The position numbers were made by a program, and so were the translations under genes. Below, one piece after another: positions 25,900 through 27,962 of a stretch of 33,720 nucleotides of DNA. Each line of letters opens with the position of its first letter. Positions within the stretch are counted from its first letter, which is position 1. The notes under the pieces were generated by a model. It made no database searches and was not told the origin of the DNA. It saw only the letters and a program-made list of their open reading frames with translations. The stretch is from Bacteroidia bacterium (GTDB lineage Bacteria > Bacteroidota > Bacteroidia > UBA4408), in assembly GCA_023262495.1 (NCBI GenBank), contig JALRAS010000003.1, positions 26,692 to 60,411 on the forward strand, in the 5' to 3' direction.

Positions 25900-26169
25900 T
25901 TATCTTTTTGAAATTTTATTGTTAGAAATGCCTCTTTGAAGATTGCATTTGAAGCGACCTTCCATGAAGTTTCTTTTCTTTAAATGTTTGGTAGTTCGCC
26001 CTTGAACACGTTCCCGCCACATTCTGAAAGAACTCGCCCGCATGTGTTTACGCATAATTTTTATAACTTCTTGTTCCGCAATGCCAAACTGCGCCTTAAT
26101 TGCATCAAAAGGAGTGCGGTCTTCCCAAGCCATCTCAATAATCCTGTCTATATCAAGTGTCGTAAGCAT
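25900..26169 (-). CDS. DUF2805 family protein
   Basis: A short conserved protein of 89 residues: DIDRIIEMAWEDRTPFDAIKAQFGI, then EQEVIKIMRKHM and SSFRMWRERVQGRTTKH. This pattern is DUF2805 (TIGR03643-like), with a helix-turn-helix-like core and no established function. The frame extends upstream to a TTG at 26271, but the extra 34 residues match nothing and the usual start is just before the DIDR motif, so ATG 26169 is preferred. The C-terminal ~27 residues beyond TKH are unusually long and basic. Stop is 12 bases from the convergent wbpB stop. Confidence 0.8.
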   Translation of the reverse strand: MLTTLDIDRIIEMAWEDRTPFDAIKAQFGIAEQEVIKIMRKHMRASSFRMWRERVQGRTTKHLKKRNFMEGRFKCNLQRGISNNKISKR

Positions 26170-26355
26170 GGGCTCGGTTTCATCAGTGTTTACTTTATCG
26201 GCTTGCTGATAAGCCCACACAGAAGGCAAACCGCTATATTCACAATGTAAGTTTTTTGATGTAGTCTCCAATTTTTTTATACCTTAACCTATTATAACTT
26301 TTTTAAGCTACTTTTCATATAACATTAACCTGCTGTTTTTGTTCGTTTCACACCC

Positions 26356-26459: not shown

Positions 26460-27629
26460 TTATTTAATAAGTAGGTTTGTGTCCTTCCAAGAAGTAACAT
26501 GCATGCCATTCTTCTTGTAGCTATAATCACCTGTATATATCAAATTTTTCTTGGCTACATGGCTTCCCTCAAGTGCCGAAAAATAATTAATGTCTTTAAA
26601 GAAGTCATCTTTAATTGTTTCAGTTGTTTTAACTTCAGTAACGCTCAACCTGTCATCAAGGTATGTTAGTAAATCTACTTCATGTCCTGATGAGTCTCGC
26701 CAAAAACTAAAATCAGCATGAAGATATTGATGTTCGTTTTGTTTAATGAGTTCAGATAACGCAAAGTTTTCAAAAATACTGCCTTTCAGCGTGTGCATGG
26801 ATATTCCTGAGGCCTGCGTTATTTTAAGCAGATGGCACAATAAGCCGGTGTCATAAAAATAAAGCTTGGGAGTTTTAATCACACGTTTGTTGAAATTGGC
26901 GTAGTGAGGTTGAAGTAAATAAATAATATAGCTACTTTCAAGCACCGAAATCCATGCTTTTGCAGTTGGTTGAGATATGCCGCAATCGTTAGCAAGTGAG
27001 TTCAGATTCAACAAATGACCACATCTCGCTGCACAAAGACTTAAAAATTTCCTGAATTGCCTCAAATCCCTTACTTCGAGCAATTGTTTAAGATCTTTTT
27101 CAACATAGGTTTGAATGTAATTCGAAAAAAAAACTTTAGGCGTGATAGCCCTATTGTATAAGGCAGGGTAGCAGCCCTTCACCAATAATTCTAAATAATC
27201 ATCTGTTAAAAGACCCGATTGTTTTAACTCTCTTAAATCATAGGGTAGTAGTTTAAATAAGGCAACTCTTCCTGCTAAACTTTGCGTGATATTTTCCATC
27301 AGTTGAAAGTTTTGAGAGCCCGATAGAATATACTGTCCCATTTTTCCGGTGGCATCTACCTTTGCTTGAATAAAAGAAAAAAGCAAAGGGGTTTGCTGAA
27401 CTTCATCAAGTATTAATTTCCCGGGATAGGATAAAAAAAATTCTTTAGGCGAATTCAATGCAAATTCACGCAACAAAGGATCCTCCAAATTCAAATAAGT
27501 GTAATCAGGAAGCATGTTTTTTAGCATGGTTGTTTTTCCAGATTGCCTTGGCCCTGTGACAGCAATCACAGGGTATTTTTTTGAGTAATAACGGATTGAA
27601 CTTTCTATGGTTCTGTGAATTGATTTCAT
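26460..27629 (-). CDS. AAA ATPase with DUF4143 domain
   Basis: A 389-residue AAA_14-type ATPase of unknown cellular role. Walker A is GPRQSGKTTML (about 26-36), Walker B LILDEVQQ, and ILSGSQNFQLMENITQSLAGR is the sensor-1/arginine region typical of AAA_14. The middle holds a winged-helix-like segment (NLNSLANDCGISQPTAKAWISVLESSYI). The C-terminal DUF4143 part contains HEVDLLTYLDDRLSVTEVKTT, which resembles a PD-(D/E)xK nuclease core (EVD and EVK). These genes are common in Bacteroidota and often mobile or multi-copy. Here it is monocistronic, starts 19 bases from its -7 box, and a 22-bp tandem repeat array lies directly behind that promoter. Confidence 0.85.
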   Translation of the reverse strand: MKSIHRTIESSIRYYSKKYPVIAVTGPRQSGKTTMLKNMLPDYTYLNLEDPLLREFALNSPKEFFLSYPGKLILDEVQQTPLLFSFIQAKVDATGKMGQYILSGSQNFQLMENITQSLAGRVALFKLLPYDLRELKQSGLLTDDYLELLVKGCYPALYNRAITPKVFFSNYIQTYVEKDLKQLLEVRDLRQFRKFLSLCAARCGHLLNLNSLANDCGISQPTAKAWISVLESSYIIYLLQPHYANFNKRVIKTPKLYFYDTGLLCHLLKITQASGISMHTLKGSIFENFALSELIKQNEHQYLHADFSFWRDSSGHEVDLLTYLDDRLSVTEVKTTETIKDDFFKDINYFSALEGSHVAKKNLIYTGDYSYKKNGMHVTSWKDTNLLIK

Positions 27630-27647: not shown

Positions 27648-27655
27648 CAAAAGTA
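27648..27655 (-). promoter_or_regulatory. -7 box of the ATPase gene
   Basis: TACTTTTG on the minus strand, a full consensus match. The leader is about 14 bases. The -33 region lies in the first unit of the 22-bp array, so a protein bound to the array could control this promoter. Confidence 0.6.
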
Positions 27656-27660
27656 CTAAT

Positions 27661-27883
27661 AATTTTGAAATAACATCATTTGAATTTTGAAATAACACGA
27701 CTTGAATTTTGAAATAACATAGATTTAAAATCGAAAAAAACATAGCACGAATTTTGAAATAACATGATATGAATTTTGAAATAACATAGATTTAAAATCG
27801 AAAAAAAACATAGTACGAATTTTGAAATATCATCATTTGAATTTAGAAATAACATGACTTGAATTTTGAAATAGCATGACTTG
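27661..27883. repeat. 22-bp tandem repeat array, ten units
   Basis: Eight units of exactly 22 bp share a 16-base core AATTTTGAAATAACAT followed by a 6-base variable part (such as CATTTG, GACTTG, AGATTT). Two further units, at 27727-27749 (23 bp) and 27794-27817 (24 bp), are diverged: AAAATCGAAAAAAACATAG plus a short tail. Core mismatches are few: one base in units at 27683, 27818, 27840 and 27862. There are no unique spacers, so it is not a CRISPR array. The nearest gene is the ATPase, whose promoter abuts the array. The 22-bp period is two helical turns, so each unit presents the same DNA face, as in iteron-like operator arrays. Confidence 0.9.
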
Positions 27884-27911
27884 ATTTGGATGTGGTAACG
27901 AATTAAATCAA

Positions 27912-27962
27912 CATTCCGCATTGAGAAATGCGGCATCACTAAAACACCTGCTAAGCGGGATT
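27912..27962 (-). repeat. dispersed intergenic element, copy 2 (inverted)
   Basis: Two parts. The hairpin CCGCATT (27916-27922) / AATGCGG (27927-27933) has a perfect 7-bp stem and a GAGA loop. Next to it, 27941-27962 is a 22-base segment that on the minus strand reads AATCCCGCTTAGCAGG and then TGTTTT. It is the exact reverse complement of 33389-33410. The whole element matches copy 3 at 33389-33486 in part. Confidence 0.7.

Follow-up and report, generated by a model that had tools for sequence, protein, structure and literature searches.

The ATPase gene and the repeats in front of it

The stretch of DNA analysed here (the window) comprised 33,720 nucleotides of contig JALRAS010000003.1 from a Bacteroidia bacterium. 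A gene for a 389-amino-acid AAA_14/DUF4143 ATPase lay on its minus strand, directly preceded by ten tandem repeats of 22 bp that abutted the promoter. The features of the locus were as follows.

26460 to 27629, minus strand: AAA_14/DUF4143 ATPase gene, 389 amino acids, assigned by Pfam and by PADLOC (PDC-S01)
27225 to 27572, minus strand: AAA_14 ATPase domain, residues 20-135 (Pfam), with the GK of Walker A and the DE of Walker B invariant in 121 homologs
26913 to 27065, minus strand: winged-helix region, residues 189-239, from the secondary structure of the AlphaFold2 model
26967 to 26975, minus strand: residues 219-221 (SQP) at the start of the putative recognition helix, which covary with half-site positions 14-16
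26688 to 26693, minus strand: residues 313-314 (SS), in the loop before the nuclease motif, which covary with half-site positions 4-7
26628 to 26681, minus strand: PD-(D/E)XK motif, residues 317-334, from conservation across the 121 homologs
27648 to 27655, minus strand: Bacteroidota-type -7 box TACTTTTG (TAnnTTTG), 5 bases from the first core
27661 to 27883, minus strand: putative operator array of ten head-to-tail half-sites at 22-bp spacing, gene-sense unit approximately ATGTTATTTCAAAATTCAAnTG
27661 to 27682, minus strand: promoter-proximal array unit, inner edge 5 bp from the -7 box
27727 to 27749, minus strand: degenerate array unit of 23 bp, core replaced by GATTTAAAATCGAAAAAAACAT
27794 to 27817, minus strand: degenerate array unit of 24 bp, core replaced by GATTTAAAATCGAAAAAAACAT

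Tandem Repeats Finder placed the repeat at 27661-27884 with a period of 22 and ten copies, of which eight had an intact core and two were degenerate. The 16-base core occurred eight times in the array at no more than one mismatch; at up to three mismatches it matched 12 times in the window against 3.2 expected, and none of the shuffles reached 12. An earlier note, made from the letters of the window, had described ten units with a 16-base core and a gap of 5 bases between the array and the -7 box, and both descriptions were confirmed. Its spacing of exactly two helical turns held for most units (22 bp), but not throughout, because the two degenerate units measured 23 and 24 bp. The array also had a higher-order period of 67 bp, equal to a block of three units, which is a sign of unequal duplication. 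With the spacing between unit and -7 box found here, the promoter-adjacent unit covers the expected -33 region. An 87-amino-acid open reading frame with a GTG start, built from the repeats at 27676-27939 of the minus strand, is probably not a gene.

Pfam analysis of the ATPase revealed AAA_14 (E 6e-26) followed by DUF4143 (E 3e-48), both above the curated cut-offs, and the protein matched the PADLOC models for PDC-S01 with an E value of 3.9e-96. No NCBIfam model matched it, and a sequence search of the PDB found no relative. In the AlphaFold2 model (mean predicted local distance difference test score 91.6), the helices in residues 189-232 were consistent with a winged helix, and one of them began at residue 220, inside this region. 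Residues 313-314 were located in the turn preceding the strand that carries E317 and D319. A fold search with the C-terminal domain returned nuclease structures, for example Can2. The winged-helix-like segment and the nuclease-like C-terminal domain that the note had proposed therefore both hold. In the nuclease motif, E317, D319 and E332 were invariant in all 121 homologs, and K334 was present in 120 of them.

Array and palindrome forms across the family

Two tandem cores were found in 16 stretches when 84,980 species genomes were scanned. The multi-copy 22-bp cases in named Bacteroidota (four Belliella and one Cognataquiflexum) were all directly upstream of a DUF4143 gene, 51-55% identical. 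The family was then represented by 144 distinct homologs with their flanks, and an array was called when repeats of 22 or 23 bp lay no more than 150 bp ahead of the start codon. The results showed that all 36 distinct homologs of at least 50% identity carried such an array, together with one homolog at 43.6%, compared with 0 of 141 downstream regions and 0.1% of shuffles. On the tree, the array holders formed one clade of 36 and one separate origin. The test suggested in the note came out in its favour: the array stood upstream of every ortholog at that identity, and arrays in whole genomes were nearly confined to this gene and its remnants.

Among the remaining 107 homologs, 87 carried a palindrome of 41 bp, in which a single centre base separates two halves of 20 bases each. 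The halves paired at about 80-95% out to position 18, where 28% was expected. The array in the window is real, but it is one form of a site found across the family, usually a palindrome, which the note had missed. In the locus L145, from a sister lineage of the array clade, the half-site TATGTAAATTTAAAGTT resembled the array unit TATGTAATTTCAAAGTA. Because half-sites of sister lineages resemble the unit in this way, the array looks as if one half of a palindrome had been repeated in tandem. The last unit in Belliella and some others faced an inverted half-site that doubled as the -7 box. The position relative to the promoter was also well kept: a -7 box with at most one mismatch began 4-6 bp after the unit in 34 of the 36 array homologs (5 bp in 26 of the 34), and an exact TAnnTTTG stood on the right side of the palindrome in 26 of 87 cases against 2 expected. 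Either form, array or palindrome, occurred in members from other phyla located on plasmids or viral contigs; the viral-contig homologs were recovered with an alignment query, a single-protein query having given no match. The units of the Ruminococcus array and of one viral-contig array were in the opposite orientation relative to the gene. In five loci (L179, L145, L176, L159 and L151), the palindrome arms were perfect to 25-30 bp, past the part that covaries with the protein. These outer arms differed between close relatives and yet remained symmetric, a symmetry that may be kept by something other than reading by the protein.

The distribution of the sites within genomes was similarly restricted. 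Ten palindrome genomes had the GGAATC-type site nowhere but at the gene or on both its sides, and one of them gave no match at that stringency. The 37 genomes searched for three-unit arrays of 22 bp comprised 29 array carriers, 26 of which had one at the gene, and 8 non-carriers, which had none. The exceptions were a different minisatellite (G553:C11) and a solo three-unit array without the gene (L235, G144:C21). In G345:C61 (L231), a 23-bp array stood before a gene copy cut off after about 11 codons. A dispersed repeat or a miniature inverted-repeat transposable element was rejected: except for the solo array and the minisatellite, every site in the genomes searched lay at the gene or at what is left of it.

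Covariation of protein residues with the site

For 121 homologs, every protein column was compared with every half-site position by corrected mutual information, giving 7,580 pairs. The top nine pairs joined residues 218-221 to positions 14-16 and residues 313-314 to positions 4-7, and the top eight were unchanged when the palindromes were analysed alone. In control stretches of 20 bases taken 30-70 bp away, upstream of the site, the maximum was 0.21 compared with 0.48 at the site. Residues 219-221 of the winged helix thus tracked the inner half of the site, and residues 313-314 tracked the outer half. The correspondences could be read as a code. At residue 221, K went with GG at positions 15-16, P with AA and N with GC. 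At residue 220, N or Y went with A at position 14, T or V with T, S, Q or M mostly with C, and H with G. At residues 313-314, KT went with GGA, SN with TATGTA and NH with TGTACA. When bases were predicted from the code residues in homologs less than 50% identical, the accuracy was 0.88 at positions 15 and 16 and 0.83-0.84 at positions 6 and 7, whereas the best of 40 random residue sets reached 0.58-0.67. Among 53 disjoint pairs of close relatives, residue 221 was the column that best tracked changes at positions 15-16. Paralogs within one genome each had their own operator variant, and at the same locus in the same genus, beside a protein 72% identical, the units of the array were all altered together. 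Several viral-contig homologs, read afterwards without a prediction, also agreed with the code: VSQP stood by TCAAAG, AVN and SSN by GC, and DGK and DRK by GG.

What the computation established is that the site exists, sits at a constant place by the promoter, is present almost universally and covaries with the protein. An operator of this gene is expected to keep a fixed spacing at the gene's own promoter and to have letters that follow the DNA-reading residues, and both were found. Since the letters of the site covary with the ATPase's own residues, the ATPase itself is the likely reader. We consider it likely, with good confidence from these sequence comparisons, that the array serves as the operator for the ATPase gene and that the gene's own product recognises it. 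The ten-fold repeat is very probably the docking site of the ATPase in its own promoter, where the most likely role of the protein would be that of an autoregulator. The note had listed an autoregulatory operator and an assembly site of the ATPase as separate options; both gained support, and the covariation of residues with bases combines them.

Several results weighed against this reading. At position 4, the code residues predicted the base no better than the majority base did. In the sister pairs, other columns outranked the code residues at positions 14 and 5-7, although the code residues ranked high. The covariation is partly inherited through the common ancestry of the homologs, and the independent-pair test on well supported branches, which gave 5:0 for 221P with AA (p 0.06), had few independent changes and little power. 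Four cross-phylum predictions were written down before the residues were read. For residue 221, two of the four were right (Treponema and Agrobacterium) and two were wrong (Moraxella, with D, and Allochromatium, with T); for residue 220, Moraxella and Allochromatium were right, and Treponema and Agrobacterium were wrong. In two of the misses, the residues were absent from the code. Finally, some homologs had no clear array or palindrome.

A mechanism can be proposed on this basis. The half-sites would be bound physically by the ATPase through its winged helix and its nuclease-like domain. The inner box of each unit (TTTCAAAAT) would be contacted by residues 219-221 at the start of the recognition helix, and the outer box (ATGTTA), about one helical turn off, by the 313-314 loop of the PD-(D/E)XK-like domain. 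Two half-sites face one another within the 41-bp palindrome that most of the family carries, and in the window's clade they follow each other in one direction every 22-23 bp. ATPase subunits would assemble cooperatively along one face of the array. The gene would be repressed through the covered -33 region. Relief might follow once the ATPase is called away or switches its nucleotide state, perhaps in phage attack, because the ATPase is a defence candidate. More units could steepen the response or store more protein.

Competing explanations and related systems

A separate host transcription factor that binds the repeats would account for many operators being alike and located at the promoter. 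The site letters, however, track the residues of the neighbouring protein, paralogs in one genome differ in their sites, and the sites are absent from other genes in the genomes tested; we regard a host regulator as very improbable and rejected it on the covariation. The repeats might also act as RNA, in a hairpin or leader, and the long palindromes would indeed fold. The array is untranscribed from this promoter, however, because the -7 box lies downstream of it; direct repeats form no hairpin, and no Rfam match was found. An RNA structure, rejected on the -7 box and the Rfam search, is the least probable of the readings weighed here. The 22-bp direct repeats beside an ATPase gene do look like iterons, and Orc1/Cdc6 was among the fold-search matches. 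An array for partition or replication is nevertheless highly unlikely: the spacing to the promoter is fixed, a palindrome occupies the same place in sister lineages, and gene and array are both missing from two relatives in the same genus. No replication or partition gene, as such an array would call for, was recognised beside it in the window's list of open reading frames.

A more serious competitor, although still an unlikely one, is that operator and gene together make up a small mobile element. The protein would then recognise the element's end in the palindrome or array, with the AAA+ and nuclease parts acting in movement and promoter control being secondary. Three genera of one family had in common the gene flanked by palindromes on both sides, with unrelated DNA beyond them. 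The gene's own half-site was found behind it in 9 of 120 homologs compared with 0.3% in the control, and also in Treponema. In relocated copies with different flanks, homology began at the outer side of the operator and stopped near the stop codon. The gene in Emticicia lay between araA and araD, which are joined in several relatives; two relatives had decayed gene copies with the operator beside araD (L266 and L268), and one had an apparent operator remnant without the gene there (L264). Within the window's genus, one relative had the ortholog at the same place beside a transketolase gene, and two relatives had neither gene nor array. The invariant nuclease motif also speaks for movement. On the other side, the recognition site stood at both sides of the gene in a minority of members and at one side in most, and no target duplication was noticed at the relocated copies, including a comparison with Emticicia relatives without the insert. 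In addition, the spacing between site and -7 box is fixed, and gene-less palindromes were not found elsewhere in the genomes searched. The relocation pattern fits a mobile unit and also fits plain horizontal transfer with decay. Of the module for movement or partition that the note had also considered, the movement part gained partial support, in that gene and operator relocate as a unit, and the partition part gained none. A broader proposal, in which PDC-S01 proteins are site-specific AAA+ nucleases that use the palindrome or array at their own gene edge for both self-control and movement, would make them single-gene mobile, defence-like elements with a readable two-part code of amino acids and bases; we hold this to be doubtful.

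In a minority of homologs, all or part of the gene's own palindrome recurred after the stop codon, namely in L083, L096, L097, L055, L081, L068, L106-L108 and L205. The downstream palindrome of Treponema was followed by a run of T and may act as a terminator.

For the preferred reading, in which the ATPase reads its own operator, the closest parallels are plasmid initiators, which bind iterons, and similar self-repressing DNA-binding proteins, which have autoregulatory operators in their own promoters. The site described here resembles theirs, with direct repeats at about two helical turns, or the inverted form, in the gene's own promoter. In contrast to plasmid initiators, the putative reader in the window is not a Rep protein but an AAA+ ATPase, and both its winged helix and its nuclease-motif domain covary with the site. 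Among solved structures, the ATPase and winged-helix part came closest in fold to the Pyrococcus abyssi Walker-type ATPase PABY2304 (2qen), Orc1/Cdc6 and RuvB, with identities of only about 12-16% and TM-scores of 0.27-0.45, and none of them has been described with a promoter-reading nuclease-motif domain. Can2/Card1-type nucleases are CRISPR-associated effectors activated by cyclic oligoadenylate. The fold-search matches to them (8q41 and 1xmx) were attributed to the C-terminal domain, which is PD-(D/E)XK-like; unlike these nucleases, the window protein has AAA_14 and a winged helix ahead of this domain, and Pfam matched no CARF domain in it. Self-recognised operators are a known kind, and a two-part operator code in an AAA+ protein with a nuclease motif is new as far as could be found.

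The window protein matches PDC-S01, the COG1373-like AAA_14 and DUF4143 ATPases, and its protective role against phage is that of a candidate. According to PMC12988326, PDC-S01 joins an ATPase and a PD-(D/E)XK-superfamily domain in one protein and ranks fourth in frequency among the defences of prokaryotes, and most PDCs still await experimental validation. A cognate operator of PDC-S01 was not found in the literature searched, with subscription papers and preprints outside its reach. With the present results, every PDC-S01 member gains a predicted DNA target that can be read beside its gene, plus a short list of target-setting residues, and a family of unknown function becomes directly testable. 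If the nuclease-motif domain does read part of the site, the control site may also be a substrate, which would be unusual and would bear on how PDC-S01 genes should be classed: as defence systems, as mobile elements or as both.

One uncultured genome, Kiruna bin 04925, also matched short exact patterns at three sites (L027 201-360, L032 630-810 and L036 4436-4595), each an array with a 21-bp period and a similar motif, GTTATTTCAAAAGTTTCATTC; no DUF4143 gene was found near them. In a Clostridiales genome (L029 1741-1845), five 23-bp units of GTCTTTTGAAATAACTGGTCAAA were located 52 bp from an open reading frame of 116 amino acids, and a relative of the ATPase was not detected. In the window itself, a DUF2805 gene (25900-26271, minus strand) lay 188 bp downstream of the ATPase gene on the same strand.
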